DNA from: Cecembia rubra
Lineage (GTDB): Bacteria > Bacteroidota > Bacteroidia > Cytophagales > Cyclobacteriaceae
DNA: 64,000 nt
Reading direction: 5' to 3'
Assembly (NCBI RefSeq): GCF_003014575.1
Contig: NZ_PYGF01000006.1
Span: 124,001 to 188,000, forward strand
In this document: positions 15,387 through 29,024 of the stretch, one piece after another
Layout: each line of letters opens with the position of its first letter
How positions within the stretch are numbered: position 1 is the first letter of the stretch
Program-made: the position numbers and the translations under genes
Notes under the pieces: model-generated
What the model was told of the DNA's origin: nothing
The model's database searches: none
The model's input: the letters and a program-made list of their open reading frames with translations, nothing else

Positions 15387-15411
15387 TGGTGGAGCTGGCG
15401 GGATTTGAACC
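15387..15411 (-). other. att site, displaced 3' end of ssrA (left end of element)
   Basis: The minus strand reads the T-arm and acceptor end of tmRNA, including an encoded CCA (15389-15387). The stretch 15389-15411 matches 28624-28646 in 22 of 23 bases (T/C difference at 15406 against 28641). It is separated from the rest of the gene by 13.2 kb, the expected result of integrase-mediated insertion at the ssrA 3' end. Confidence 0.88.
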
Positions 15412-15516
15412 TTTGATTTTTATAATTGCTCAATTTTACATAAAGTGCTTTATTTTAGCTTTTTATTGTGTTTTTTGTAATTTGTTGTAAATTTATGTTA
15501 ACCTTTGTAATACATA

Positions 15517-15552
15517 ATTTGCACCAGTAATTGCACCAGTAATTGCACCACT
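15517..15552 (+). repeat. three 12-bp direct repeats, candidate integrase arm sites (left)
   Basis: ATTTGCACCAGT, AATTGCACCAGT and AATTGCACCACT follow one another at a 12-bp period between the att site and the integrase start at 15564. The same core in the same orientation occurs twice at the right end (28548-28569). The position immediately before the integrase gene also makes autoregulation possible. Confidence 0.7.
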
Positions 15553-15563
15553 AAATTTAAAGC

Positions 15564-16889: not shown

Positions 16890-16894
16890 TAGGT

Positions 16895-17614
16895 ATGATT
16901 GACATCAGAAATATTTTAGAATCGGAAGAAATTAACAATGGATCTTTGTTAGAGGAATTTTTTATAAAGGAAATTGATGGTGGCCTGAAAAGTAAATCCC
17001 CCTACAAAACAAAGTATTTTGAAGATGAAATCGGGTTCAGTGAACTTATTCAAAGAGAGTTGAAATCCAGAAATAGTAAGTTTTCGAAAAGACTAGTTGA
17101 GGCTGTTGAGTTTGACTTAAACCTAATGATTGAGGACCATAAAAAACTGTATAAAGGAAGGAATACGGATTTACTTGAATTGGCAGATAGGTTTAAAAAT
17201 TGGTTGATGGGATCATCAAATCAATTTAATTTTCAAAAGGAACCAACTGAAAAAAGAACACTTGAAAATGTTCTCAAAGAACCTTCAAATAGTAATTTTA
17301 GAAAGATTGTTGAAATTCTATTGTTAAAGAATGCTGAAATTTCCTTAGATCATTTGAAACCTTTAATAGACGTTAAATTGAATTGGGTAGGAAATAAAGG
17401 AGCAGTTCAAGTTTTCGGGGAAATTTTGATTAATAAAAAAATAGTTATTGAGACTAAGAAATCAAAACTAGGAAGAATCCTTTCCAATACTTTCCATGGT
17501 GTTAAAGAAAAATGCATGGAACAGGGTAATGCTGAAAAATATGGGGCAAAGGAATATGAAGAGTATTTTTTGAATAGCCTTAAGGATCTATCAGGCCCAA
17601 ACCAACTTAAGTAA
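16895..17614 (+). CDS. hypothetical protein next to integrase, 239 aa
   Basis: I do not recognise this protein. It starts five bases after the integrase stop and is probably cotranscribed with it. It is hydrophilic with no signal peptide. The C-terminal 90 residues (ISLDHLKPLIDVKLNWVGNK and FGEILINKKIVIETKKSKLG) look like a small alpha-beta domain, possibly a winged helix; this is inference only. Similar accompanying genes after integrase are frequent in Bacteroidota mobile elements. A role in integration, excision or its control is plausible from position. Confidence 0.65.
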   Translation: MIDIRNILESEEINNGSLLEEFFIKEIDGGLKSKSPYKTKYFEDEIGFSELIQRELKSRNSKFSKRLVEAVEFDLNLMIEDHKKLYKGRNTDLLELADRFKNWLMGSSNQFNFQKEPTEKRTLENVLKEPSNSNFRKIVEILLLKNAEISLDHLKPLIDVKLNWVGNKGAVQVFGEILINKKIVIETKKSKLGRILSNTFHGVKEKCMEQGNAEKYGAKEYEEYFLNSLKDLSGPNQLK

Positions 17615-17653
17615 TGATTTGATTTACTTTTTTCCCCTTTTTATGACTTTTTT

Positions 17654-17684
17654 TTAGGAATCCTAAAATCCTAAATCCTCCTAA
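17654..17684 (+). promoter_or_regulatory. TCCTAA repeat cluster, candidate operator of the excisionase-like gene
   Basis: TTAGGA-A-TCCTAA (17654-17666) is a palindrome with a one-base centre; further TCCTAA words follow at 17669-17674 and 17679-17684. The cluster lies 43-73 bases upstream of the HTH gene at 17727, where a regulator or the HTH protein itself could bind. Confidence 0.45.
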
Positions 17685-17726
17685 AGTTCCATTTATAATC
17701 TTTGATCCATCAACAAATCAAAAATT

Positions 17727-18002
17727 ATGGAACAAATAATTTTATCCCCTATACCACTAAATGAGCTTAAGATGGCAATTAGGGAAATAACTGAGGAGGC
17801 TTTATTGAATATCCAGAACAGACCTCAAAAAGCAAAGTCCCAGATTGTTGATGGGGACTATCTCCAAAAAAAGTTTGGGGTGACAAGGCAAACTTTAGGA
17901 AGGTGGCGAAAACAAAATAAAATACCTTTTATCAAGCAAGGCGGCATAATAAGATATGATCTTGATAAGGTAATTGAATCATTGGAGAAAAAGAAGCGGT
18001 AA
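17727..18002 (+). CDS. excisionase-like helix-turn-helix DNA-binding protein
   Basis: A 91-residue protein whose second half is a MerR/excisionase-type winged HTH (HTH_17-like): DYLQKKFGVTRQTLGRWRKQNKIPFIKQGGIIRYDLDKVIES, where the wing ends in the typical I-R-Y-D motif. The first 40 residues form a helix (LNELKMAIREITEEALL) probably used for dimerisation. In integrative elements such proteins serve as recombination directionality factors or regulators. It lies downstream of the integrase operon after a TCCTAA repeat cluster. The exact role, excision or transcription control, is not decided by sequence. Confidence 0.8.
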   Translation: MEQIILSPIPLNELKMAIREITEEALLNIQNRPQKAKSQIVDGDYLQKKFGVTRQTLGRWRKQNKIPFIKQGGIIRYDLDKVIESLEKKKR

Positions 18003-18068
18003 CAACAACAGGAAAAATCCCGGTCTTAACAACACTGAAAAATATGTGTTACCAAAATTTTATTGAAA

Positions 18069-18398
18069 ATGAATCAAAAAAGAAAGGCCCTAACCGTGGA
18101 GGAGGAAAGGGCCGAAATAACTAGAGGGCAACAGCTACAAAGAAACAAATTTATTGCTCAAAAAAGAAGGGTTTTTGAATCTTTTCTTGAACGTCCTAAG
18201 ACAATGCTGGAAGTGGAGGCTGAAACAGGTATTATGCGATCAAATATCTGTTATTATGTGAGGGATTTTTTGCTGGAAGATAAAATAAAAAGAGTAATAA
18301 CCGGAATTTGTTCGATCACATTCATGAGGGCAGGACGGTACACTACTGACCGGAGCCAATGGAATTACCCAACCGGAAAAGGGGGTTCACATGAATAG
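18069..18398 (+). CDS. small putative winged-helix protein, 109 aa
   Basis: A basic protein with a probable winged-helix core: FLERPKTMLEVEAETGIM is followed by RSNICYYVRDFLLEDKI, the pattern of a helix-turn-helix that recognises DNA and then a short wing ending with tyrosine and arginine. ATG at 18069 is preferred; TTG at 18063 is possible. It overlaps the next gene by eight bases (18391-18398) and starts a run of coupled genes up to the putative replication protein. Regulator or replication accessory factor; not certain. Confidence 0.65.
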   Translation: MNQKRKALTVEEERAEITRGQQLQRNKFIAQKRRVFESFLERPKTMLEVEAETGIMRSNICYYVRDFLLEDKIKRVITGICSITFMRAGRYTTDRSQWNYPTGKGGSHE

Positions 18399-18708
18399 TA
18401 ATGGCCCCTATATCGCCAAACTTGATGATTTCCCAATCGAAAAATCCATGTTTGATTCATGGTCCTCAGAGGATCTTATTTCAAGATACCAGGGTAATAA
18501 AAAGCTATTGGGTAAGCTGGTTGAAAATCTCAGCCTAAACAAAGAGCTGCAGAAAGAATATTGGCAAAATGGCTGGATACAAACTTATACCATTGAGAAC
18601 AGGATTATCCTAAATGTCCTGGGATCACGGCTGGAAAATATTCAGCTGGAATCCCTCCTGGAAAAAAATGTAGCTGGAAGAAAGGAGGTGAGAAATGGAC
18701 ATCTATAG
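18391..18708 (+). CDS. hypothetical protein, 105 aa
   Basis: No family is recognised. It is a soluble, helical protein with a leucine-rich middle (NKKLLGKLVENLSLNKELQKEYW) and no export signal. It overlaps both the preceding gene (eight bases) and the following one (14 bases), so it is translated as part of the regulation/replication run. Confidence 0.6.
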   Translation: MNSNGPYIAKLDDFPIEKSMFDSWSSEDLISRYQGNKKLLGKLVENLSLNKELQKEYWQNGWIQTYTIENRIILNVLGSRLENIQLESLLEKNVAGRKEVRNGHL

Positions 18709-19504
18709 GCTTTCCCGTTCATTCTGGGATTTTGCATTTGAAAATCCGGATAAAATAAAACCTAATCATTGTGCCCTCTTCTTTTTTGCGATAGAGCATT
18801 GCAACCGTCTTGGATGGAAAGAAAAATTTGGGCTACCTACCACAATGGTTATGGAGGCAATTGGTATAAAAAGCTACAACACGTATATCAAGACATTCAA
18901 TGAACTTGTTGAAATAGGTCTTTTTGTTCTACACCAAAAATCCAAAAATCAATATTCAAGCAATATCATTGCTCTATCAAAATTTGACAAAGCAAATGAC
19001 AAAGCACTTGATAAAGCATTGATAAAGCACGGAACAAAGCAAAGAGAAAGCACGGAACAAAGCATTGATAGTATAGATATACAATATACCAATTTAAAAA
19101 TTAACAAAAGTACCATTGATGATTCACCTGATTTGATTGAAAAAAAAATTGATGAAGAAAGAGTGATCAAAGGTACAAAGCAGATAGCAGAATTCTTTTC
19201 CATATCTGAATTGAGGCAGCCAAAGCACTACATGACAATAGGAAACTTTGTCCGGCACCATGCCCTAAAAGGAAATCTTGATCACCTGGCAGAGCAGTTC
19301 ACTGCTTACCAGATGATAAAAAGCAAAGATCCGAAATTCAAACACAAATGGTATAACTGGATAGGAAGTCCGGAAAAAAGCTATGAAGACGGACAGTGGA
19401 ACATTGTTGACTGGGTGGAAGAAATGGAGAGGCAAAAGGAACCGGTTGATAAAAAAACAATAAATGCAATGAAAAGAACCTATGAGCTTCTAAACGAGAA
19501 ATAA
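18695..19504 (+). CDS. putative phage-type replication initiation protein, 269 aa
   Basis: The N-terminal 90 residues (FWDFAFENPDKIKPNHCALF; MEAIGIKSYNTYIKTFNELVEIG) form a winged-helix domain like that of replication initiators of Bacteroidota phages and elements. A low-complexity charged linker follows (KANDKALDKALIKHGTKQRE, about residues 93-112, and a Ser/Thr/Asp part), and the C-terminal part (IGNFVRHHALKGNLDHLAEQ; HKWYNWIGSPEKSYEDGQW) resembles a DnaD/primosome-like domain. It probably loads the host replicative helicase onto element DNA; this is an inference from architecture. It is the last of three overlapping genes. No helicase or primase is encoded beside it. Confidence 0.6.
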   Translation: MDIYRLSRSFWDFAFENPDKIKPNHCALFFFAIEHCNRLGWKEKFGLPTTMVMEAIGIKSYNTYIKTFNELVEIGLFVLHQKSKNQYSSNIIALSKFDKANDKALDKALIKHGTKQRESTEQSIDSIDIQYTNLKINKSTIDDSPDLIEKKIDEERVIKGTKQIAEFFSISELRQPKHYMTIGNFVRHHALKGNLDHLAEQFTAYQMIKSKDPKFKHKWYNWIGSPEKSYEDGQWNIVDWVEEMERQKEPVDKKTINAMKRTYELLNEK

Positions 19505-19530
19505 ATACTTACAACCAAAAACTAAAAATC

Positions 19531-19785
19531 ATGGAAAAACTAAACATCTTCCAAAATTTGGAGAAAACGCAAAAGGCCATAGTCCTTAAAAGATTAAAAG
19601 AGATGAATGACGACTTGGGACAGAAAATCAGTAAGATACCAAAGGAGTTGATTCCTGATCTTATAACCGAGTTGGAAACTGACCTTACAGCAGGGGGCAA
19701 GGAAAGCCCGCAAAACCAAAAACCTGAATACACGGAAGACGAGAATTCTACATTAAATGAGGCCGTAAAATCAATATTCAGATAA
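19531..19785 (+). CDS. hypothetical protein, 84 aa
   Basis: Small soluble protein of unknown function. The first 50 residues are helical (FQNLEKTQKAIVLKRLKEM), followed by a disordered Gly/Ser/Gln/Pro/Glu linker and a short C-terminal helix. It begins 26 bases after the putative replication gene and ends two bases before the next start, consistent with one operon. Confidence 0.55.
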   Translation: MEKLNIFQNLEKTQKAIVLKRLKEMNDDLGQKISKIPKELIPDLITELETDLTAGGKESPQNQKPEYTEDENSTLNEAVKSIFR

Positions 19786-19787
19786 TC

Positions 19788-20414
19788 ATGGAAGCTATTT
19801 TACTAGAATACAAGGAAAAAGAGCATGCCCAGTTCAATGAGCATGCCACTAGGCTAACTAAAAAAATAAATTCATTCCTGGAATCATGGGAGACCGTTAA
19901 CAGTGAATTAAAAATTGACATAGCTTACCCGGATCTTGTCAAAGGTATCATTGAAGTTGGACCGGCCTTGTTTGAAAGGCTTGAAGTTGATTACCTTAAA
20001 GACAAGGATACGCCACTGATCAAGCACTACCAGGAATTTTATTATTCAAAAATCAACCTCCTTACTGACCTTTGCCGAAAGATAACTGAGGGCACAATTG
20101 GTATGGGTAATTACCCCAAGGAATTACAGGACGTTGCCCAATGGCCCTGGGAAGCAGACAGGCTAAAACCCCATGAAGCTTGGTTTTCTTCCCTCAGAGA
20201 ACACTTTGAGCTAGTTGCCAGCACCAAAGAGCAGCAGGAACTTGTTGACCTCTATTTGGCACTTAAAAATGCGTATAATGCCCTACATGAATTTTCTGAT
20301 TCGAAAGGGTTGGGGCTATCACATGACATCAGAGGGATGTATAATTTCCATCATGAGGGACTTCAATTCAGAATAAGCGAGAATTTTGACCTCTTGCCCC
20401 TCCACAGGTTGTAG
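19788..20414 (+). CDS. hypothetical protein, 208 aa
   Basis: Unrecognised, soluble, mainly helical protein with many aromatic residues and two histidine-containing segments (LSHDIRGMYNFHHEGLQF). It starts directly after the 84-residue gene. A hairpin at 20426-20451 follows it and probably ends this transcript. No motif justifies a function. Confidence 0.6.
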   Translation: MEAILLEYKEKEHAQFNEHATRLTKKINSFLESWETVNSELKIDIAYPDLVKGIIEVGPALFERLEVDYLKDKDTPLIKHYQEFYYSKINLLTDLCRKITEGTIGMGNYPKELQDVAQWPWEADRLKPHEAWFSSLREHFELVASTKEQQELVDLYLALKNAYNALHEFSDSKGLGLSHDIRGMYNFHHEGLQFRISENFDLLPLHRL

Positions 20415-20425
20415 AATGGTTTGGC

Positions 20426-20451
20426 AGGGCCCCATCATTAATTGGGGCCTT
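20426..20451 (+). terminator. hairpin terminator after the replication/unknown gene run
   Basis: AGGGCCCCA (20426-20434) pairs with TGGGGCCTT (20443-20451), including one G-T pair, with an 8-base loop and TTGTT after it. It separates the 17.7-20.4 kb gene run from the gene at 20489. Confidence 0.6.
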
Positions 20452-20488
20452 TGTTACACCAATCTTTAAAGATTTAGGTTTCAATTTT

Positions 20489-21106
20489 ATGGCCAGAACC
20501 CCAACTTATCCCGATATAGCAGAGGATCTTCCTTACATTTCCATCAAGGATTTAAAGGATCAAGGACTTTTTAATTTGGGTATTAATTCTTTGGGAGTTT
20601 TCAGGCTTTGTATTGATGGAATGCCCCGTGGAGGCACTATAGAGGCTTTTGTTGGCTTAAAGGATATCAAATACATTTCCCTTTCTTGGTACTCAGAAGA
20701 CAAATACTTTACTGCGTCCACAAAAATAACAAGTATAAAATCTAATCTTGGAGCAGGAGAAATTTACTATTTCCTATGCCCAAAAACATCAAAAAGGTGC
20801 CTAAAACTTTACTTTTTGGGTAATGTTTTGGCATCAAGACGCTACTTTAACCTCTATTATCGCGATCAAATCCTTTCAAAACCAAACTACGGCATTATCC
20901 AGTTATGCAAGGCCTTCCAGGAATTTGATGAACTTAAAAATAAATATTGGTCACTGAGGACGAAATCCTATAAAGGGGTTCCCACTAGGCAGGCCATCAG
21001 GTTAAGGGTAAAAATGGAGAATAAAAGAAGGATTATCCAGGCTATACAGAAAGTGACTGAAAAGGATTATCAGAAAGAAATTCAAAGGATCAAAAAAGGA
21101 ATTTAA
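20489..21106 (+). CDS. hypothetical protein, 205 aa
   Basis: No family is assigned. The centre reads YFLCPKTSKRCLKLYFLGNV followed by SRRYFNLYYRDQ, which resembles the C-P-x-C-G-R-R-x-R-K-L-Y zinc-ribbon proteins of phages and plasmids, but with most zinc cysteines missing; that link is inference. The C-terminus is strongly basic (RLRVKMENKRRIIQAIQKV; EIQRIKKGI), suggesting nucleic-acid contact. It is separated from neighbours by a terminator upstream and a spacer with inverted TTGCACCA-type sites downstream. Confidence 0.6.
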   Translation: MARTPTYPDIAEDLPYISIKDLKDQGLFNLGINSLGVFRLCIDGMPRGGTIEAFVGLKDIKYISLSWYSEDKYFTASTKITSIKSNLGAGEIYYFLCPKTSKRCLKLYFLGNVLASRRYFNLYYRDQILSKPNYGIIQLCKAFQEFDELKNKYWSLRTKSYKGVPTRQAIRLRVKMENKRRIIQAIQKVTEKDYQKEIQRIKKGI

Positions 21107-21211
21107 AACCGGACTTTTCTGACCTCTATAAAAGGGTTCAAATCCAATCACATCTAATGCATAACATCAAAATCAACCATTGAAGGCCTATAAATAGGGA
21201 TAATTGCTAAA

Positions 21212-21235
21212 GGTGGTGCAATTAGTGGTGTAGTT
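21212..21235 (-). repeat. internal pair of TTGCACCA-type 12-bp repeats
   Basis: On the minus strand, AACTACACCACT (21235-21224) and AATTGCACCACC (21223-21212) are adjacent at 12-bp spacing. They share the core of the terminal repeats but in the opposite orientation. They lie 36 bases before the ParB-like gene, suggesting a regulatory use or an additional integrase/accessory site. Confidence 0.55.
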
Positions 21236-21270
21236 AAACAGTAAAAAACTTAAAATATTTGGAAGTTGGT

Positions 21271-21771
21271 ATGTTTAAACTTGATAATGGAATTCAGATT
21301 CCCGGTGAGATTGATTCTAAAGATAGCTTTGTGAATTTTGTCTTAAATCAATGTCAAGAAAGGAAAACGGTTTTAATGGAAAAAATGAAGCTGAAAAATC
21401 CAGGTTCATTCATTTCCAAAGAAGAGCTTTTTGAATATGTCCAGGCCCTAAAAGATTTTCAGGACTTTGATTTGGTAACAACAAAATTTTTGATCTCCTT
21501 ATTCAAATGCCCAGAAGATTACAAAATCCAATTGATTGAGGCCAATAAAATAAAACCAAGATCCATATCAAGCGGTGATAAAGTAGAGGCATTCAAGAAA
21601 ATGATTTATGAAAGTGATTTTATACCCCCGGTCTTTGTTACAAATTCATTTGATCTAGTGGATGGGCATCATAGGCTATTAGCTGCAATTGAATTGGGAT
21701 ATGATTTAATACCCTCATTTGTTTTAAGCGGAGCATGTAATTCAAACTTTGGTAATCAGGTGGTTTTATAA
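21271..21771 (+). CDS. ParB/sulfiredoxin-fold protein, 166 aa
   Basis: The C-terminal part contains IPPVFVTNSFDLVDGHHRLL followed by AAIELGYDLIPSFVL, the D-G-x-H-R-x-x-A motif of the ParB N-terminal/sulfiredoxin-like nuclease superfamily that binds CTP in ParB proteins. Residues about 60-110 include a polar helix region and KIKPRSISSGDKVEAFKKMI. No ParB-type HTH follows, so plasmid partition in the classical sense is unlikely; a nuclease, kinase-like or ligand-binding role is possible. ATG 21271 is chosen over TTG 21259. It is preceded by the internal 12-bp repeats and followed by an AT-rich spacer with a tandem repeat. Confidence 0.7.
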   Translation: MFKLDNGIQIPGEIDSKDSFVNFVLNQCQERKTVLMEKMKLKNPGSFISKEELFEYVQALKDFQDFDLVTTKFLISLFKCPEDYKIQLIEANKIKPRSISSGDKVEAFKKMIYESDFIPPVFVTNSFDLVDGHHRLLAAIELGYDLIPSFVLSGACNSNFGNQVVL

Positions 21772-21788
21772 AAAAGTGTAAATAATTC

Positions 21789-21816
21789 ACTTACATATCA
21801 ATACTTACATGTCAAT
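21789..21816 (+). repeat. 14-bp tandem repeat in an AT-rich spacer
   Basis: ACTTACATATCAAT and ACTTACATGTCAAT are adjacent and differ at one base. The surrounding 128-bp spacer (21772-21899) is extremely AT-rich with A- and T-runs and further TACAT words. It could hold a promoter operator or an origin-like region for the small genes at 21900 onwards. Confidence 0.5.
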
Positions 21817-21899
21817 ATAATACATACATAAAATTTTGTTATTTTAAAAAAAATAAAATAATATTTGTTTTTTTAATTTTTTCTTTTTTATTTTCAGTT

Positions 21900-22169
21900 A
21901 TGGAAGCAAACAAAGAATTGATTTTTGAAATAGCATACTTTCTGAAAAGTTATTCAGCATTTGAAATGTCTGTTTGTGTGAATCATGCAAAAAAGTTACT
22001 TGAAGAGCTTACTTGTATGACAGATCAAGAAAAAGAAATTAAGATTTCAGAAATCAAGAATTCAATAGGGCAATTCAAGCTATCTCTTAGTTTGACAGGT
22101 TCGCACAAAATTTCAGCCTTTCACTTACAATCATTAACAATTGGAAAAATCAAATTAATGCCTACATGA
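21900..22169 (+). CDS. hypothetical protein, 89 aa
   Basis: Unrecognised small soluble protein with a helical N-terminal half (ELIFEIAYFLKSYSAFEMSV) and a polar remainder. Its stop overlaps the next start by four bases (ATGA at 22166-22169), so the two are coupled. It begins right after the AT-rich spacer with the 14-bp tandem repeat. Confidence 0.55.
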   Translation: MEANKELIFEIAYFLKSYSAFEMSVCVNHAKKLLEELTCMTDQEKEIKISEIKNSIGQFKLSLSLTGSHKISAFHLQSLTIGKIKLMPT

Positions 22170-22390
22170 AAGAAATAAAGATTGAACACAAAATTTTAAT
22201 TCATGATGAATTAAAAAAAGCCCTAGATGCAATAGGCAATATTGGTGAATTATGCGCTAAAGAAAAATACCATCATATTTTGCTTTCCACAACATCAATT
22301 TTAGGATTGATAAATAATGTTTCCCGATTAACAATGGGGAAGGATATTGATAAATCATTAATACCAAATCAAGATTTTACTAAAAACTAA
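22166..22390 (+). CDS. hypothetical protein, 74 aa
   Basis: Small protein of unknown function, helical, with a histidine-containing N-terminal segment (EHKILIHDELKKALDAIGNI). Translationally coupled to the gene before it and followed after 12 bases by another small gene. No motif or membrane segment. Confidence 0.5.
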   Translation: MKEIKIEHKILIHDELKKALDAIGNIGELCAKEKYHHILLSTTSILGLINNVSRLTMGKDIDKSLIPNQDFTKN

Positions 22391-22402
22391 AACTACAAAA
22401 CC

Positions 22403-22591
22403 ATGAAAAATTCAAAATCAACAGAACAATTATTGCAAGGTATCCACTTAATGGAAGAGGGCTTGAAAAAAGTTAGGACCGAGATTGGTAAACTTGATGA
22501 TCCTTGGTTGGATGATTATTCTGCTATTTTACAAAATAGACTTGAAGTACTGAAAACAGGAATTGAAGTTGAGGTAATTGAAGTTGATTAA
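22403..22591 (+). CDS. hypothetical protein, 62 aa
   Basis: Very small acidic protein, mostly one or two amphipathic helices (TEQLLQGIHLMEEGLKKVRT; YSAILQNRLEVLKTGIEVEV). It lies in the tight run 21900-22968 with a 12-base gap before it. Function unknown. Confidence 0.5.
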   Translation: MKNSKSTEQLLQGIHLMEEGLKKVRTEIGKLDDPWLDDYSAILQNRLEVLKTGIEVEVIEVD

Positions 22592-22605
22592 TTATGATTA
22601 TTGTT

Positions 22606-22968
22606 ATGAAAAGGAGGCTGGTTTTAATCTTTATGACCATTTTGGTGGGTTGTATAGAAACCAATCCTGAACCAAATCAAAGCAATATTTCAGATGTCAG
22701 TGTTGCTGGTTTTTCTGTTAAAAAACTTGGTGAAGAAGTTTCTTTATTTTTTGCAGTGGAAAGGATTCCAAAAAGGAATAAGTGGATTATGGTGTGGAAA
22801 ATAAACGGAACAATAGTCCATCAAGAGCCAATTCCAAAAAACAATGTAAGCATTGTTTTATTTCATCGCTATAAACCTTCAAGTACAGGACAATACCTTT
22901 ATGAGGGTTGTATTTCAAATGGTTCCTCTGAATTCTGTAATGGGGATAGTTTTTCAGTAATTGAATAA
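22606..22968 (+). CDS. small lipoprotein, 120 aa
   Basis: Starts with a lipoprotein signal, MKRRLVLIFMTILVGC, whose cysteine at residue 16 follows a proper lipobox, so the mature part should be membrane anchored outside the cytoplasm. The ATG at 22606 is preferred over 22594 because it starts the signal directly. The mature domain of about 100 residues has alternating strands (EVSLFFAVERIPKRNKWIMV) and two late cysteines (YEGCISNGSSEFCNGD) that could form a disulfide, consistent with a small immunoglobulin-like fold; this is inference. An envelope protein in an element may act in superinfection exclusion or surface change, but nothing proves this. Confidence 0.65.
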   Translation: MKRRLVLIFMTILVGCIETNPEPNQSNISDVSVAGFSVKKLGEEVSLFFAVERIPKRNKWIMVWKINGTIVHQEPIPKNNVSIVLFHRYKPSSTGQYLYEGCISNGSSEFCNGDSFSVIE

Positions 22969-23009
22969 AAACACTACTTTGAAGACTATTTAAATTAAAT
23001 GAATTCGCA

Positions 23010-23033
23010 AAAGCCCTTAACTGGGTTTTTTTT
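23010..23033 (+). terminator. weak hairpin terminator before the tape-measure gene
   Basis: AAGCCC and GGGTTT form a six-base stem (with a G-T pair) around TTAACT, followed by a run of T at about 23025-23033. It likely ends the small-gene/lipoprotein transcript. Confidence 0.55.
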
Positions 23034-23060
23034 ATTGACATTTATTCTAAGTGTCAATAA
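23032..23060. promoter_or_regulatory. 9-bp perfect inverted repeat upstream of the tape-measure gene
   Basis: TTATTGACA (23032-23040) and TGTCAATAA (23052-23060) enclose an 11-base centre, 82 bases before the tape-measure ATG at 23142. The two-fold symmetry and one-turn-and-a-bit half-site spacing suit a dimeric repressor. No T-run follows, so an operator is likelier than a terminator. Confidence 0.5.
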
Positions 23061-23141
23061 TCAAAAACCTTTTTCCTTAGATATATTAACCTTTTTTCAA
23101 AAATTGTTCACAGGAATATTTTTAACACAAAAGGAAAAACA

Positions 23142-26100
23142 ATGAGCGTAGAAGTCAATGACGGAGGATTGGGATGGGTAGCCAGGATAGATACATCCCA
23201 ACTGCAGAGAGATGCCCAGAAAGTTGCGGACATCATTGAAGATGCCGCAAAGAAAGGTGAAATCGGACAGCAGAAAGTAATCAAGAACCTTAGCACCAAT
23301 GCGAGGACAGTTGTCCAGGACGGAGCCGAAGCACTAAAAAGCCTCACACCTGAAATACAGAAACAGGTGGCAATCCTACAATCATTCCAGGTTGAACTTG
23401 GAAAAGTAAAGCTCACACAAAAGGAACTTCAAAGGGACCTTGACAGAGGAACAATTTCCCAAAAACAATACAACCAGGCAACCCAGGGATTATCCGTAAG
23501 ATATGCTGAAATAAACGAGAATATTAGAAAGTATTCTGACAGCCTTTCAAGGAACAGGGCTCTTATGGACACTTCCAACGGTTCCATTGATCAAAAAAGG
23601 ATCAAGCTACAGCAGATGGTAACCGCTTACAATGCGCTTTCCAGATCCGAAAGGGAAAATTCCGAAACCGGAAGAAGGCTTGCTAAAGAAATCCGTCAAC
23701 TTGACCGTGAAATCACCAAAGCTTCAAGAAGCCTTAAGGGAATGTCGGACAGTTCAGCCGTTCTTAACAGAATCCTTGCAGCCTCTGCAGGTCTATTCAC
23801 TTTGGCCAGTGCAAAAAGATTCATCACGGACATAGTAAGGGTAAGGGGTGAAATCGAACAGCTTGAAGTGGCCTTTGCAACGATCCTGAAATCAAAAGAA
23901 AAGGCAAATGTTCTTTTCAAGGAAATTGTTCAGGTGGCAACCACAACACCTTTTACCATTACAGAAGTAGCGGACGCCACAAAACAGCTTTTGGCCTATG
24001 GATTTGCAGCAGAGGAAGTAAGGGGCGAACTATTGAAAATAGGCAACGTGGCTTCCGGTACCGGTTCCACATTCCAGGAGGTTGCTTATGCATACGGAAC
24101 ACTCAAAACCCAGGGACGTGCTTTTGCAAGGGATATCAGGCAGTTTACCACCCGTGGTATTCCTATTGTGGCTGAATTGGCCAAACAGTTTGGAGTTACG
24201 GAAGAAAGAGTAAATGAACTTGTTTCAGCAGGTAAAGTAGGATTTCCAGAGGTTTCCAAGGCATTCGAAAGCATGACCAAGGAAGGAGGGGTATTTTTCA
24301 ACCTCATGGAAGAGCAGGCAAAAACTGTTTCCGGTGAAGTGGCAAGATTACAGGACAAACTTCAACTGATGCTCAACAGTATCGGGGAATCCAACGAAGG
24401 TATAATCAAAGCAGGTATTTCGGGCCTTGGTTCTTTGGTGGAAAACTATGAAACAATAGTTGAAATATTGGGAAGCCTGGTAGTACTCTATGGATCTTAT
24501 AAAGCTGCTTTATTGTTGACTTTTGCCGCTTCCAAGCTTGTGGCCACAGGCACAGCAGGTATGACAGCGGCCCAGGCCATCAACACAACAGCAACAGCAC
24601 TTGCGACAAGGGCAACAGCTCTTTGGGGAGCTGCCATGAACGCCCTTCCATTGGTTGCGCTTACTACTCTTATTGCAGCTCTTGTAGGAGCTGTTTATTC
24701 CTGGAACAGTGCCGTTGATTCTGCAACGGCTTCCCAAAGAAGGTTGAACGATATACAGAAAGACGGGGAGGCAGCAGCAGATAAGGAGAAAAACAAGATC
24801 AACGAACTTATTGCGGTCCTGAAATCCGAGGTTGCTACAATTGCCCAAAAGGAAGGTGCCATGAGAGGCCTACAGGGAATTTTGGGAGATTATATTGACG
24901 GTTATACCCAGGAAGAAATTGCAGCAGGAAAAGCCGAAAAAGCCATAATTGATTATACAGAAGCTCTCAAAAAATCCGTAGAGATCAAAGAGGCTTTTGA
25001 GGCTTACAATAAGCTTGGTGATCAGATCACCGATATTGAGAAAAAAGGTGTTGATGCACTCGATACCTATGAGCAGGTAGGTCAGAACCTGAAAAATGTT
25101 TTCCAGCTCAACGGAAGGTCCATTAGCCAGTATTTCAAAGAACTTTTCTTTGTTGATGACCAAACTTTGATTGACAGGAATATCCAGAGCCTTAAAGAGC
25201 AGAGAGAAGCATTAAAAGAGGCTTTTGATTTTACTGACATCCTGACAGGAAATGAATCCATAGGAACCATACAAAGGGAGTTTGATACTCTTATCGGAAA
25301 TGTAGAAGGGAATTTCAACAGGCTTATTGAGCTTGCCGAAAACAAAGCAGATCTTGAAAGGATCAAAAAAGGACTTACCGAATTTTTGGAAGAGCTGGCA
25401 CCCAATGATCCACAGATCGAAGGTTTGAAAAGGCAGATTTCCAAGGTCAATGACATCCTCAAATCCTACAGCCTTACCGAGGAAAACAAAACCTTGAAAG
25501 ATGCTTCAAGGGAAAGGAAAAAAATCCTTGAAGAGCTCAACAAAATGGAGGCAGAGACTTTTGTTAAAGGTTTTGACAAAAGGGAACAGGAAATCCAGAA
25601 AGTAAAGAAACAGTTTGAGGACCTTAGGGATGCAGCTAAACAGGCTGGACTTGGACAGGGTGTCATGGAAAGAATTGACAGGCTGGAAGAGCGTAGGACA
25701 GGGGACATCAGTTACAGAACCGAAACAGACCTTTTAAAACAGGAGCTTGAAAAAAGAAAGCAGCTTTATGAAGACCTTGAAGTGTATGCCAAGGATTTTG
25801 GAATACAGGCAGCAGAAGCAAGGTATTCAGCTGAGCTTGATGTAGCAAAAAGATACCTTGATCTTGTACAGGAGGAATATAACAAGCTTGTCCAGATCAA
25901 TCCTGAGGAAAGGACAGGTGTCCAGAATGAAAGGCTTGAATTCCTTCAAAAGGAGCTGGACAGTGAAAAAAGAATCCAGCAGAAAAAGTATGATGAATTT
26001 CTTAAGACTGTCCAGGACTATGAGACACAAAGAAGCCAGATTACAGAAAAGTACCAACTGGAAAGACAGAAATTGTTGGAAAACGGTGACAACCAGTATC

Positions 26101-27764
26101 TTGAACAGCTTAAGCAGAATTATGAAACAGAAATAGGGGCCCTTGATGATGCCAATGCCCAAAAACTCGGACTTTACCAAAGATTCTTTAGAGGTCTTGA
26201 AACACTTTCCGTTGCAGCTTCCAGAAAACTGATCAATGACCTTAGGGACAATCTTGAAGCATTAAGAGGACAGGGAAGGGTTACTGATGCCTTCTATAGG
26301 GATATGCTTGACAGACTTAACCAGGCAGAGATCCAGACAAACATGAGGATTCCACAGGGCCTTAAGACCATGGCCCAGGAATTTGCAAATATTTCAAGGG
26401 AAATAGGGAAATCCAACAAAGGACTTTCCACAATGTTGGGAATACTTTCCGAATCACTCAGCAGGGTTGCGGACATAAAGGCGAATATTGCCCAATTTCA
26501 GATTGCATCCAAAGCCAATGAAGGCAAGGGTGATATTCTGGGAATGGCAACAGCGGGACTTGGTGTCATTGGATCAGCAGTAGGAGGGATATTCCAGATC
26601 ATAAATGCCATCAACAGGATAAATGAAAGGCAGCTTGAAATGATCAGGTCCCAGCTTGCATTTCAAAGAAGGCTTATTTTCGGGGAACTGGAAATAAACG
26701 AACTGAGAAGGCAAAGAGCCCTGGAATCTGCAAAGATTGAAAACGAGACTTTGAACACCTTATTGGCACAAAGGGATGTTTTGAAAGAAAATTTGGGCGA
26801 GTTAGGAGTAGATAAAGCAGCCATTGAATCAAAATTCAATGTTGATCTCACAAAAAACCAGCAGAAAAGACTGAATGATTTCAGGAAAGGGATGGACAAG
26901 GAGAGAGAGACTGTTAGGGCAGCCCTTGAAGAAAGTCTTTTTATAGTAGGTGAAAAAACAGTGAATACCGGGTTCCTGAATCTTGGAAGAAAGACAGTGC
27001 AGGAGTTTGGAAGCCTTGCAGGAAAAAGCTTTGAAGAAATAGAAAGACTTTTCCTTGAAGGAAGGCTTACCAAGGCAGCGGAAGAGCTTTTCCAAAAACT
27101 TAAGGAGCTACAGGACAGCGGCAAGGAAATCGAAAGTCAGTTGAAGGATATTGATGATCAGCTAAGGGATATTTTCACAGGTGGGGCAACTTCCCTTGGA
27201 CTGGCAGACAGCATTATTTCAGGATTCCAACAGGGAAAAAGGGCAGCAGAGGACTTTGGGGATGATGTGGAGGAAATATTGAGAAATGCAATCCTTAGCG
27301 GGTTCAAATACAAGTTTCTTGAAGCTCCTTTGAATGCTTTGCTGGAACAGCTTTACCAGGATTCGCTTTCAGAAGAAGAGCTTAGCGCTTCTGAAATTGC
27401 CAATTTCCAGCAACAGTTCGGAAAGATCATAGATGAATATTCCAAGGTTTTTGAAGACCTACAGAACGCAACAGGAATAGACCTTTCGGGAATAACAGGA
27501 AATGTGGCGCAAAAAGGACTTGCAGGGGCTATCAGGAGGGAAATGACTGAGGCAACTGCTTCTGAACTTGCGGGGATTATGAGGGGAGATTTTGACGTGA
27601 ACAAAAGGCATTTGCAGATTGCTCAGGACAATCTACAGATCCAGTTCCAGATTGAGAGAAATACGGCTGAAACAGTACTGGAACTCAGGCAGGCAGTTGT
27701 TGAACTTAAAGAAATCAGGATCAACACCAAGAGTGGATCAGGAAGGGATTTGGGGCTGGATTAA
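23142..27764 (+). CDS. phage tail tape-measure-like protein, 1540 aa
   Basis: An intact tape-measure-like protein, the kind that sets tail length in siphophage and myophage virions. The diagnostic domain lies at about residues 215-400: REGIEQLEVAF-like opening (GEIEQLEVAFATILKSKEKA), TTPFTITEVADATKQLLAYG, and GTLKTQGRAFARDIRQFTTRG. Hydrophobic segments follow (about 435-530: LGSLVVLYGSYKAALLLTFA; ALPLVALTTLIAALVGAVYS), then a long coiled coil (about 550-1080), another hydrophobic patch near 1145-1170 (GMATAGLGVIGSAVGGIFQI) and a further coiled coil. By the usual tape-measure relation the length would suit a tail of roughly 230 nm. No other tail or head gene is present in the element. The reading frame shows no decay. 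Confidence 0.87.
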   Translation: MSVEVNDGGLGWVARIDTSQLQRDAQKVADIIEDAAKKGEIGQQKVIKNLSTNARTVVQDGAEALKSLTPEIQKQVAILQSFQVELGKVKLTQKELQRDLDRGTISQKQYNQATQGLSVRYAEINENIRKYSDSLSRNRALMDTSNGSIDQKRIKLQQMVTAYNALSRSERENSETGRRLAKEIRQLDREITKASRSLKGMSDSSAVLNRILAASAGLFTLASAKRFITDIVRVRGEIEQLEVAFATILKSKEKANVLFKEIVQVATTTPFTITEVADATKQLLAYGFAAEEVRGELLKIGNVASGTGSTFQEVAYAYGTLKTQGRAFARDIRQFTTRGIPIVAELAKQFGVTEERVNELVSAGKVGFPEVSKAFESMTKEGGVFFNLMEEQAKTVSGEVARLQDKLQLMLNSIGESNEGIIKAGISGLGSLVENYETIVEILGSLVVLYGSYKAALLLTFAASKLVATGTAGMTAAQAINTTATALATRATALWGAAMNALPLVALTTLIAALVGAVYSWNSAVDSATASQRRLNDIQKDGEAAADKEKNKINELIAVLKSEVATIAQKEGAMRGLQGILGDYIDGYTQEEIAAGKAEKAIIDYTEALKKSVEIKEAFEAYNKLGDQITDIEKKGVDALDTYEQVGQNLKNVFQLNGRSISQYFKELFFVDDQTLIDRNIQSLKEQREALKEAFDFTDILTGNESIGTIQREFDTLIGNVEGNFNRLIELAENKADLERIKKGLTEFLEELAPNDPQIEGLKRQISKVNDILKSYSLTEENKTLKDASRERKKILEELNKMEAETFVKGFDKREQEIQKVKKQFEDLRDAAKQAGLGQGVMERIDRLEERRTGDISYRTETDLLKQELEKRKQLYEDLEVYAKDFGIQAAEARYSAELDVAKRYLDLVQEEYNKLVQINPEERTGVQNERLEFLQKELDSEKRIQQKKYDEFLKTVQDYETQRSQITEKYQLERQKLLENGDNQYLEQLKQNYETEIGALDDANAQKLGLYQRFFRGLETLSVAASRKLINDLRDNLEALRGQGRVTDAFYRDMLDRLNQAEIQTNMRIPQGLKTMAQEFANISREIGKSNKGLSTMLGILSESLSRVADIKANIAQFQIASKANEGKGDILGMATAGLGVIGSAVGGIFQIINAINRINERQLEMIRSQLAFQRRLIFGELEINELRRQRALESAKIENETLNTLLAQRDVLKENLGELGVDKAAIESKFNVDLTKNQQKRLNDFRKGMDKERETVRAALEESLFIVGEKTVNTGFLNLGRKTVQEFGSLAGKSFEEIERLFLEGRLTKAAEELFQKLKELQDSGKEIESQLKDIDDQLRDIFTGGATSLGLADSIISGFQQGKRAAEDFGDDVEEILRNAILSGFKYKFLEAPLNALLEQLYQDSLSEEELSASEIANFQQQFGKIIDEYSKVFEDLQNATGIDLSGITGNVAQKGLAGAIRREMTEATASELAGIMRGDFDVNKRHLQIAQDNLQIQFQIERNTAETVLELRQAVVELKEIRINTKSGSGRDLGLD

Positions 27765-27790
27765 TTATTTTTTATTGTTTTAATATTCCT

Positions 27791-27820
27791 AAAAAGCCTC
27801 TATCCTGGGGGCTTTTTTTA
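27791..27820 (+). terminator. hairpin terminator after the tape-measure gene
   Basis: AAAAAGCC (27791-27798) pairs with GGCTTTTT (27810-27817), and the T-run continues. It lies 27 bases after the tape-measure stop codon and separates this gene from the paralogous pair. Confidence 0.75.
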
Positions 27821-27888
27821 TAAAATACCCTGTAGAGGGGATTTTTTCCTATTTGAAAATTTTCTAATATGGGATTTAAAAAAAAGCC

Positions 27889-28221
27889 ATGGATCAGGAC
27901 CTTAATTTATTTCTCCCTTTAATTCTGAATATCGGTTTATTAATCGGAGTGGTCATCCTTTTCGTAAATGTGGCTAAAATTAAAAATTCAGTTTCAAAGA
28001 GTTCTGAATTCTGGACAGATCAATTTTGGAAACATTACCATTTTGGTGAAAATGAAAAGGCATTTGAAGCGCTGAAAGAATTGACCTGGACAGAAATAAG
28101 GATAATCTACAAAGATGAATTTGTCCAATCTGAAAGGCAAAGGAGGGTAGAAGTATTAAAAAACAAGTATAAATCAATGTTTGAAAAGATAGGGAAAACT
28201 TTTCCTGAGACACCGGAATGA
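27889..28221 (+). CDS. small membrane protein, paralogue A, 110 aa
   Basis: One transmembrane helix near the N-terminus (about residues 10-28, LILNIGLLIGVVILFVNVAK) followed by a charged cytoplasmic-type domain with a repeated theme WKHYHFGENEKAFEALKELTW and a C-terminal KNKYKSMFEKIGKTFPETPE. The next gene shows the same order of elements, so the two arose by duplication. No family is recognised. Ends one base before its paralogue begins. Possible roles include envelope or tail-linked regulation, but no evidence beyond position. Confidence 0.65.
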   Translation: MDQDLNLFLPLILNIGLLIGVVILFVNVAKIKNSVSKSSEFWTDQFWKHYHFGENEKAFEALKELTWTEIRIIYKDEFVQSERQRRVEVLKNKYKSMFEKIGKTFPETPE

Positions 28222-28222
28222 T

Positions 28223-28537
28223 ATGGATTCAGTCATAATTCTGCTTTTTATAATTCAGGTTATTTTGATAGTGGTTTTTATTAGAATGACCTTCAATGTC
28301 AGCAAGATCAGAAGGCTTCTTGAAAGCTCGGGAAAAGACTGGTATTATGAGTACAACAAAAACATGTATTTGGGCAGAAGAGATAAGGCAGCAAATTGTA
28401 TTCAGGAACATGTATGGGTATTGATGGAAAAGAATAGATCTAACTCCAACTATGAAAAATTGAAATCTAAATATCAATCCGATTTTGAAAACCTTGGAAT
28501 CCAGTTTCCATTAAATCCTTATAAAACCGTTGATTGA
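28223..28537 (+). CDS. small membrane protein, paralogue B, 104 aa
   Basis: Same layout as the preceding gene: N-terminal helix (IILLFIIQVILIVVFIRMTF), VSKIRRLLESS, then YEYNKNMYLGRRDKAANCIQ and a C-terminal KSKYQSDFENLGIQFP matching KNKYKSMFEKIGKTFP of paralogue A. The divergence is considerable, so the duplication is not recent. It is the last gene of the element, only 11 bases before the right-end TTGCACCA repeats. Function unknown. Confidence 0.65.
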   Translation: MDSVIILLFIIQVILIVVFIRMTFNVSKIRRLLESSGKDWYYEYNKNMYLGRRDKAANCIQEHVWVLMEKNRSNSNYEKLKSKYQSDFENLGIQFPLNPYKTVD

Positions 28538-28547
28538 GCTTTAAAAA

Positions 28548-28569
28548 TTGCACCACTTTTTGCACCACT
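28548..28569 (+). repeat. two 12-bp-spaced direct repeats, candidate integrase arm sites (right)
   Basis: TTGCACCACT at 28548-28557 and again at 28560-28569, same orientation and period as the three left-end copies. They lie about 55 bases inside the right att site, the usual place for an arm-type site of a tyrosine integrase. Confidence 0.7.
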
Positions 28570-28581
28570 GTTTAAAACAAG

Positions 28582-28616
28582 AATCCTAACTGATTGAAAT
28601 AATGTCAGTTAGGATT
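28582..28616. terminator. hairpin terminator at the right end of the element
   Basis: AATCCTAACTGA (28582-28593) and TCAGTTAGGATT (28605-28616) make a perfect 12-bp stem with an 11-base loop; a T-run follows on the plus strand. It can stop element transcripts before ssrA. On the minus strand it follows the ssrA 3' end but has only a weak T-rich sequence after it, replacing the stronger original terminator now at 15346-15384. Confidence 0.7.
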
Positions 28617-28623
28617 TTTTGTT

Positions 28624-28646
28624 GTGGAGCTGGCGGGATTCGAACC
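28624..28646 (-). other. att site within the ssrA 3' end (right end of element)
   Basis: The 23 bases match 15389-15411 except for one position. They form the T-arm and acceptor part of the functional ssrA gene, which the integration event reconstituted with element-derived sequence. Confidence 0.85.
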
Positions 28647-29024
28647 CGCGTCCAGATAGGGAAACACCGTACCGTCTACATGCTTAGTCACCTGTTGGGT
28701 TTTCGACTGTTGTTTGCTGGGTGACACACCGGACAACAGCTTAGCCACTGGTCTTAATCCCGTTTAGTAGCCTCACGGGAAGCATCATTGTCTTATCGAC
28801 ACCCCAAATCCATCCGGACAATGCAACAAATGGCGGAGTGTGGCTGGGGAGTCACTCTTGCAACTCAACCCTTTAAGCGATATCTATCCCCTTAGGGTTA
28901 GATTAGGCAGCCATGGCGTAAGAAGTTTCGCCAGTTATCTTTGCATGAATCTTTTAAGGCCGTACATACTTCAGCCTGCATGCGAGCCCGATCTTCACAC
29001 CTACTGTCAAAACCGGTCAGCCCC
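28625..29024 (-). ncRNA. ssrA: transfer-messenger RNA (tmRNA)
   Basis: Rescues stalled ribosomes. The 5' end GGGGCTGACCGGTTTTGACA (from 29024 leftwards) and the 3' end GGTTCGAATCCCGCCAGCTC followed by C and A form the tRNA-Ala-like half: the GGGGCTG acceptor strand pairs with CAGCTCC with one G-U. The tag frame, 28932 to 28903, reads GETSYAMAA and TAA. CCA is not encoded: after discriminator A (28625) the gene reads CAA, so the end must be added after transcription. A TAnnTTTG box lies upstream. The 3' end is the target of the integrative element. Confidence 0.95.
28903..28932 (-). other. tmRNA tag reading frame (GETSYAMAA)
   Basis: On the minus strand, nine codons from GGC (28932-28930) are followed by stop TAA (28905-28903). 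The peptide GETSYAMAA is of the Bacteroidota type (compare GETNYALAA in Bacteroides). The hydrophobic AMAA end should be recognised by ClpXP-type proteases. The exact resume codon is inferred from family comparison. Confidence 0.8.

Follow-up and report, generated by a model that had tools for sequence, protein, structure and literature searches.

A satellite-like element in the tmRNA gene of Cecembia rubra carries a phage tape measure protein gene

Phage-inducible chromosomal islands (PICIs) have a gene set of AlpA/Stl, Pri-Rep, cpm and TerS, and use the tails of their helper phages. Here we describe an integrated element of Cecembia rubra (Bacteroidota; Cyclobacteriaceae) that encodes a tape measure protein (TMP) of its own. 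It lies in a stretch of 64,000 nucleotides (contig NZ_PYGF01000006.1 of assembly GCF_003014575.1, positions 124,001 to 188,000), referred to below as the window, and positions are those of the window unless a contig is named. From its genes we read it as a phage satellite, or satellite-like integrative element, that puts its own working TMP into the tails of helper phages, a reading to which we give a probability of roughly 0.68.

The PLE satellites of Vibrio cholerae encode their own TMP and TAC, and sometimes BhuB, and form chimeric tails with ICP1 (PMC12987554). PLE11 particles hold the PLE TMP and not that of the helper, tail length changes as predicted, and deletion of the TMP cuts transfer by 96% (PLE1), 99% (PLE4) and about 99.9% (PLE11) (PMC12987554). 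The same paper (PMC12987554, Nature 2026) describes PLEs as the first satellites known to have chimeric tails made with their own TMP, notes that the benefit needs more work, and points to putative tmp genes of PLE-like elements and some capsid-forming PICIs (cf-PICIs; legend of Extended Data Fig. 10). The short CpmB protein of SaPI1 and the scaffold of its helper have the C-terminal, capsid-binding part in common (PMC5644958). Different again is a Streptomyces satellite that encodes a tail fibre of its own (PMC10690885). We searched the open literature, a scope that leaves out preprints and most subscription journals, for satellites with tape measure or tail genes and for Bacteroidota satellites, and among the matches listed only PMC12987554 reports satellite TMPs; similar Bacteroidota elements are possibly already in print.

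The element is bounded by a 17-bp direct repeat, GTGGAGCTGGCGGGATT, which lies at each end inside an imperfect 32-bp repeat. The site is empty in a congener (G001), where the two flanks meet at the tmRNA gene with no element between them. Paired TTGCACCA-type repeats at both ends of the element look like integrase arm sites. Between the two attachment (att) repeats lie 17 main open reading frames (ORFs), all on one strand, and this arrangement is best read as one integrated element that has an integrase and att sites of its own. The element limits, the tmRNA site and the relatives presented below go beyond an earlier, sequence-only reading of the window, which had singled out the TMP gene as an intact orphan. 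In another genome (G002:C99:172000-190000, L177), part of the tmRNA 3' end is present in a further copy about 4 kb from the tmRNA gene, which suggests another element at the same site. The features that define the element are as follows.

15389-28640, no strand: whole integrated satellite-like element, 13,252 bp, with att repeats at both ends and an empty site in the congener G001
15389-15405, no strand: left att repeat, 17 bp, just 5' of the integrase gene
15529-15552, no strand: repeat AATTGCACCA.., putative integrase arm sites, with its partner at 28546-28569
23142-27764, + strand: tape measure protein, 1540 residues (PF20155, E 8.2e-23; phrog_9959, E 5.9e-143)
28546-28569, no strand: partner repeat, putative integrase arm sites, pairing with 15529-15552
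28624-28640, no strand: right att repeat, 17 bp, which is the 3' end of the tmRNA gene
28624-29024, - strand: tmRNA gene (ssrA), the host target, which stays whole on the right (ARAGORN; Rfam RF00023 at 28622-29024, 116.6 bits)

The TMP ORF starts with ATG and runs for 1540 residues with zero internal stops, and the log10 probability of as many open codons is -51.7 given the single-base composition of the element. The Pfam domain TMP_3 (PF20155) matches residues 231-415 at 81.6 bits, above its cut-off of 41, in agreement with the TMP-type motif block that the sequence-only reading had placed at residues 215-400. Furthermore, nine more tape-measure PHROGs besides phrog_9959 match at E <=0.001. 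The hydrophobic segments proposed earlier were recovered as three stretches of 19-residue windows (442-460, 493-522 and 1132-1151), and the tail length of about 230 nm given with them is plain arithmetic at 0.15 nm per residue. Among the 17 ORFs, scans with Pfam and PHROGs at E up to 1 recognised neither portal, capsid or large terminase genes nor genes for a tail tube, sheath, chaperone or baseplate, which bears out the earlier remark that no tail tube, chaperone or baseplate gene accompanies the ORF. Judged by these matches, the ORF is a genuine TMP that stands alone in its element. Its gene has a G+C content of 0.435, compared to 0.345 for the remainder of the element, consistent with a module of foreign origin, although the difference is smaller at third codon positions.

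When 146 relatives were searched with the window TMP in a first draw, seven genomes matched, its own included, and the sole other full-length match was the TMP of a prophage in G032 (49% identity over residues 1-1532, both ends aligned). Portal, head-morphogenesis and major head proteins of this prophage (G032:C5) were identified by PHROGs; we relied on position or likeness for the genes of its terminase, tail tube, chaperone, tail completion and tail tip, whose best PHROGs carry no functional name. Relative-rate tests revealed similar numbers of private changes in the window and G032 TMPs, whether G312 (166 vs 152, chi2 0.62) or G376 (134 vs 130, chi2 0.06) served as outgroup. In a maximum-likelihood tree of 20 of the 27 TMPs collected (four under 1000 residues and L023, L033 and L036 were left out, and the tree tool flags unusual composition in five rows, G312 and G032 included), the two are sisters with support of 100/100 and branches of 0.54 and 0.54. 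Identities between them at the three codon positions are 0.588, 0.697 and 0.360. The sequence-only reading had proposed dN/dS as a check, which for the window and G032 TMPs gave an LWL85 ratio of about 0.26 (dN 0.46, dS 1.79) and no dS with NG86; we rejected it as decisive evidence since synonymous sites are saturated, and it is the codon-position identities and the relative-rate tests that point to phage-like constraint. The window TMP is under constraint like the TMP of a complete phage and does not evolve faster.

Length is also kept, at 1540 residues in the window, 1537 in the G032 phage, 1554 in G312 and 1544 in G376, although at residues 631-700 the window TMP is only 34%, 9% and 13% identical to G032, G312 and G376, respectively. 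An idle ruler would not be expected to hold its length in this way.

The remaining main ORFs of the element are listed below with the names used for its core genes.

15564-16889, + strand: tyrosine integrase (PF13102, 1.3e-17; PF00589, 6.1e-14)
16895-17614, + strand: 239-residue protein, no assignment (no match in Pfam, PHROGs or PADLOC)
17727-18002, + strand: helix-turn-helix (HTH) protein of the HTH_17 type, read as excisionase or regulator (PF12728, 2.3e-6; DNA-binding PHROG, 4.2e-5)
18063-18398, + strand: g4, core gene in 3/4 elements (51% to G376, 38% to G048; not found in G312)
18391-18708, + strand: 105-residue protein, no assignment (no match at E 0.01 in Pfam, PHROGs or PADLOC)
18695-19504, + strand: Rep-like protein (replication-initiation O-like), also found in phages (phrog_18020, 1.1e-5)
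19531-19785, + strand: g7, 84 residues, in the slot of the relatives' scaffold-like protein, not detectably scaffold-like (scaffold-profile E 1.2)
19788-20414, + strand: g8, core gene in 4/4 elements (phmmer 2e-18, 4e-8 and 1e-6 to the three relatives)
20489-21106, + strand: g9, in 3/4 elements and in other integrative elements (fold searches without match at E 0.001)
21259-21771, + strand: ParB-N domain protein (PF02195, 5.1e-6, 26.9 bits vs a cut-off of 26.3)
21900-22169, + strand: small protein, no assignment (Phage_tail_terminator_8 at 0.014, under cut-off)
22166-22390, + strand: small protein, no assignment from Pfam and PHROG scans
22403-22591, + strand: g13, small, kept in relatives (29% to G312 and 27% to G048; phmmer 1e-6 and 3e-6)
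22594-22968, + strand: small lipoprotein-like protein, labelled by eye (Rz-like spanin PHROG at 0.15)
27889-28221, + strand: m1, small membrane-like protein, labelled by eye (paralogue of m2, phmmer 7e-11)
28223-28537, + strand: m2, small membrane-like protein, labelled by eye (paralogue of m1)

A Rep profile run over 390 genomes of the family gave six matches at E 1e-8, namely the window, G032, G170, G048, G312 and G376. Together with the window, G312, G376 and G048 carry elements with a common gene order, int-HTH-(g4)-rep-g7-g8-(g9)-...-TMP. The four elements span three genera and three insertion sites, the three relatives belonging to two other genera of the family, and are found at tmRNA (window), at tRNA-Arg (G312) and at the start of a phosphatidylserine-decarboxylase-like gene (G376 and G048). 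The G312 element occupies 14.4 kb between tRNA-Arg and a perfect 40-base repeat and encodes an integrase, an HTH protein, Rep, g7, g8, g9, g13 and a TMP of 1554 residues, with no further tail gene recognised. Its Rep appeared broken but this was rejected, the TAA sitting at the end of the frame (1522347-1523048). The G376 element (about 16.9 kb) encodes an integrase, two HTH-type proteins, g4, Rep, g7, g8, g9, a g13-like protein, a TMP of 1544 residues and a tail-tip-type protein. The G048 element carries an integrase, HTH-type genes, g4, rep, g7, g8 and g13, followed by genes for an HK97gp10-like protein (phrog_5, tail completion, 3e-6), the TMP and a tail-tip-type protein (tail-protein PHROGs at 5.6e-11 and weaker, the best PHROGs being unnamed), and the element's right end holds an IS21-like pair. 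We named the decarboxylase, the IS21 pair and Tal by eye, and likewise placed the ends of the G376 and G048 elements by eye, using a short, imperfect repeat found where the decarboxylase-like gene begins. The genomes of the three relatives yielded no TMP_3 protein other than the element TMP.

Homologues of the window TMP thus do not always sit beside complete tail modules, a situation that would have spoken against the sequence-only reading: no other tail gene was recognised in the window element or in G312, and only tail-tip-type or tail-completion-type genes stand beside the TMP in G376 and G048, where it lies directly before the Tal-like gene. A tblastn search with 24 proteins from the head and tail regions of two complete prophages (TMPs excluded) found, at E <=0.01, only the C-terminus of a scaffold-position protein (G048 and G312), HK97gp10 (G048) and Tal (G376 and G048), and nothing in the window element at E 0.01. 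Moreover, the largest unassigned ORFs of the four elements encode 239, 257, 302 and 332 residues, too short for a usual portal or large terminase. On this comparison the four elements form a recurrent lineage with a core gene set and not a one-off remnant. A g8 profile run over 390 genomes of the order matched only the window's own g8. In scans of viral contigs, neither the g4 alignment nor G312 g8 detected a relative, the Rep alignment detected one, and the G312 TMP gave two weak C-terminal matches. In G048, weak DUF5681 similarity (6e-4, under cut-off) was seen at C1:1771733-1772035 (L047, 9734-10036); DUF5681 also occurs in a stretch of G115 (L103, 1.1e-14), and a link to packaging is a guess.

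The scaffold-position protein of the G032 prophage, G032_54917 (222 residues), is encoded two genes upstream of the capsid gene. A relative annotated 'hypothetical protein' in Porphyromonas phage PP754928.1 lies just before the head-fibre and major capsid genes, so that both occupy the scaffold position, and we infer their function from this place. A profile built from four phage proteins and no satellite sequence matched g7 of G312 (2.2e-16), G048 (6.3e-13) and G376 (5.7e-4), compared to 0.069 for the best of 1000 shuffled controls. These matches suggest that g7 of G312 and G048, and weakly that of G376, corresponds to the C-terminal part of a phage scaffold-position protein, and the parallel with CpmB supports a satellite life for the four-element family. 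The window g7 was aligned by eye as a scaffold mimic and rejected, since shuffled sequences outscore it. A PDB search with the scaffold-position protein returned nothing useful (two dynein chains at 0.31 and 0.37), and a search of phage records with G312 g7 found no match.

Like a PLE, the window element would be an integrated satellite whose own TMP replaces that of the helper, and in both groups some members add a tail-tip or hub protein; the likeness is drawn from the published description of PLEs. Unlike PLEs, the Bacteroidota elements belong to another phylum, the window TMP is a TMP_3 protein whose end-to-end relative sits in a Bacteroidota prophage, and the four elements lack a recognised chaperone and carry Rep-like and g4, g8 or g9 genes, with the putative scaffold-C-terminus mimic in two, or with the weak match three, of the four. 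With SaPI1 and PICIs they share a similar size, an integrase, an HTH and a Rep-like gene, an att site in a host gene and, in G048 and G312, a short protein matching the C-terminal part of the scaffold-position protein, as CpmB does for its helper. Candidate counterparts of PICI genes are the HTH_17 protein (weakly TerS-like) and the Rep-like gene in the window, and the putative scaffold mimic in G048, G312 and, weakly, G376; however, the window element has no scaffold signal, and AlpA, Stl, Pri and TerS were not recognised as a set. The putative tmp genes of some cf-PICIs are a further case of a satellite-borne TMP, but cf-PICIs make their own capsid and packaging proteins, none of which was recognised in the four elements. 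Finally, the G032:C5 prophage shares with the lineage the TMP (49% end to end to the window), a Rep relative and a scaffold-position protein whose C-terminus recurs in G048 and G312, whereas it has portal, head-morphogenesis and capsid genes, and none of g4, g8 and g9 has a match in the 50 kb examined.

Satellite TMPs do not form one clade on the tree, and well-supported branches force three label changes. A Mu-like prophage on contig 2 of the window's genome, in which Pfam identifies portal, protease and capsid, encodes a second TMP_3-type TMP, to which the G048 TMP is sister (100/100). Furthermore, g8 is 55% identical between G312 and G048, which share a genus label, and 22-30% between other pairs, while the TMPs of G312 and G048 are only 24% identical and that of G312 is 43% identical to the window and 41% to G376. 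Closeness in g8 without closeness in TMP suggests that the TMP moves independently of the backbone. It seems that the elements and phages have exchanged the TMP module repeatedly, which is what a need to fit changing helpers would predict. The Mu-like prophage itself (G000:C2, about 407000-440000), whose TMP is 34% identical to that of the window element over the best segment, is a candidate helper.

Besides the TMP, virion-related matches in the window element are confined to the terminase-small-subunit PHROGs (17727-18002), Phage_tail_terminator_8 (21900-22169) and the spanin PHROG (22594-22968). The first is its only terminase-like signal: the HTH protein matches phrog_57 at 8.9e-5, phrog_309 at 0.095 and phrog_7344 at 0.14, but it scores best against a DNA-binding PHROG (4.2e-5), and Pfam places it in HTH_17. 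We put this likeness down to the HTH, although a small terminase remains a possible identity. A predicted model of g8 from a four-row alignment was poor (AlphaFold; predicted local distance difference test, pLDDT, 43.9) and was not used, and the g9 model (pLDDT 76.6) had no match at E 0.001 in PDB and viral fold searches. The g9 protein, with the consensus motif CPxTGKRCRKLY, also occurs in integrase-bearing stretches without a TMP (L098, L099, L103, L104 and L106), some of which carry restriction- or defence-like cargo as judged by eye. Scanned with PADLOC, ten proteins of the window element gave only weak, partial matches (ParB-N protein to MTase_II, 8.2e-5; 21900-22169 to Cas2, 0.0035 and 0.0058; m2 to E1-E2, 0.0055), in which we do not see a defence system.

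If the element is a satellite, growth of a tailed helper phage in the cell would lead it to excise and replicate. The satellite TMP would be loaded on the helper tail-tip complex, replacing or competing with the helper TMP, and the helper tube protein would polymerise to the ruler length of the satellite TMP; the resulting chimeric tail would then join heads packed with satellite DNA. In G048 and G376, the tail-tip-type (Tal-like) protein could provide the satellite's own adsorption or ejection parts, and in G048 and G312, and weakly in G376, the scaffold-C-terminus protein could steer capsid assembly, as CpmB of SaPIs. Possible gains are escape from a defence directed by the helper TMP and a fit to the host membrane at DNA ejection. 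We infer all of these steps; their starting point is an integrated element in which no head genes were recognised and whose full-length TMP is under constraint. Among the roles listed in the sequence-only reading, a replacement tape measure for a helper phage is the best supported.

Several points weigh against a satellite. The reading presupposes a helper phage, induction, a packaging signal and transfer, all of them hypothetical, and the one small-terminase candidate is insecure. No tail chaperone was recognised among the 17 ORFs of the window element (a very divergent one is possible), whereas PLEs have one. The set is small, with four elements found via Rep among 390 genomes, and the G170 Rep match sits on a 4.9-kb contig with no TMP there, its placement undecided. 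The absence of head genes from G312 and G376 is read from tblastn and ORF sizes, hidden Markov model libraries having covered only some proteins. The window g7 shows no scaffold-like signal, its E-value of 1.2 being beaten by a few dozen shuffles. The satellite label does not cluster on the TMP tree, as shuffled labels give as few changes in 115 of 500 cases. Rates are not uniform in the clade (with G376 as outgroup, the G312 TMP has 135 private changes vs 257 in the window TMP, chi2 38), length is not kept throughout (1036 residues in the G048 TMP), and length alone is a weak criterion since less related phage TMPs are also near (1535, 1565, 1565 and 1572).

Other points would fit phage descent by deletion, in which the element is a decaying prophage that lost its head and most tail genes and whose TMP survives by chance. 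The closest relative of the window TMP, its sister on the tree, sits in the complete G032 prophage, which also has a Rep relative. The window Rep matches 34 IMG/VR contigs and is up to 76% identical at its N-terminus, and the G048 Rep is split across two frames near its start, so that this copy may be decayed. We nevertheless consider such an origin unlikely. The same headless plan recurs in four elements at three sites in three genera, and the fetched stretches of the 34 contigs (4.5-20.6 kb) hold none of the other core genes except for a distant integrase in one. The TMP changes at the phage rate, and its frame, which the sequence-only reading wanted checked for pseudogenes, is open in 4/4 elements. 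The att ends are intact and the site is clean, and remnants of head or tail genes in phage order were not found in the window element with the 24 structural references at E 0.01.

A more improbable alternative is an interference device, in which the TMP would protect the host as a decoy, poisoning the assembly of helper tails, and would not be built into satellite particles. Tail assembly is a known target of element-borne defences, such as Tai (PMC11364771) and Rta (PMC12987554), and two elements (window and G312) have a TMP without another recognised tail gene. However, the TMP is full length in three of the four elements and its ends align with phage TMPs, neither of which a decoy requires, and the tail-tip-type protein added in two relatives fits building rather than blocking. 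Interference may instead be a by-product of the tail conversion that we propose. The lack of a tail gene beside the TMP in the window element would fit a protein that is secreted or interacts with the host, or cargo with no link to phage tails, but such a role is highly improbable and without support, given that this TMP is homologous end to end to a phage TMP and that three relatives keep theirs, two of them directly before a Tal-like gene.

A search for PF20155 in 380 family genomes at E 1e-6 revealed 25 places in 21 genomes. Four belong to the four-element family, five to other short elements without a full head set (G071 twice, G430, G369 and G196), 12 lie beside head genes, and four, at contig ends, are left unassigned (G045, G233 twice and G326:C8); these classes are a reading of stretches up to 20 kb, partly by homology and partly by eye, and not an automatic count. 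The two places in G071:C1 (L183 and L184) are 100% identical over at least 15,063 bases and carry an rve transposase, a TniB/MuB-like ATPase, a Clp protease and a TMP_3 protein, with no capsid or portal seen there; the pair is possibly a transposing TMP element. The elements in G430:C5 (L189) and G369:C4 (L192) are short and of the transposase/MuB type; they have a TMP and a Mu-type portal, and homology to the references revealed no other head gene, L192 having been read by homology only. G196:C55 (L197, 5197-14744) encodes an integrase, an AAA protein, a TMP, a portal and a capsid protein in about 10 kb. It was rejected as a member of the four-element family because it carries portal and capsid genes, and it resembles a capsid-forming satellite with a TMP, closer to cf-PICIs than the four elements are. 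In another family of the same order, a run in G110 (C55:186000-205000, L113, 5652-17643) comprises an integrase, an excisionase-like protein, a primase, a small terminase (phrog_51, 4.4e-34), a tail-chaperone-like protein (phrog_183, 3e-4) and a TMP of 936 residues. This is a second satellite-like backbone with a TMP; as a bounded element it was rejected, no repeat of more than 11 bases being found.

A broader proposal is tentative and, in our view, possible rather than probable. The four elements would constitute a distinct Bacteroidota satellite lineage in which the TMP is the only, or nearly the only, virion gene, and in which a TMP alone, without a chaperone, suffices to convert helper tails and can be swapped with phages as helpers change. 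TMP carriage would have arisen on several unrelated backbones (integrase, Mu/Tni-transposon and TerS-bearing), making tail conversion a general satellite strategy.

An independent set of elements in another phylum, with phage-like TMP constraint without a recognised chaperone and with TMP exchange on the tree, offers a natural comparison to PLEs. Since some of them have a tail-tip-type gene and others do not, they allow one to ask what the ruler alone gives to a satellite. If our reading of the element as a satellite is true, it would spread through hybrid virus tails built with its own ruler protein, a use suggested by the presence of such a protein in its three relatives as well.

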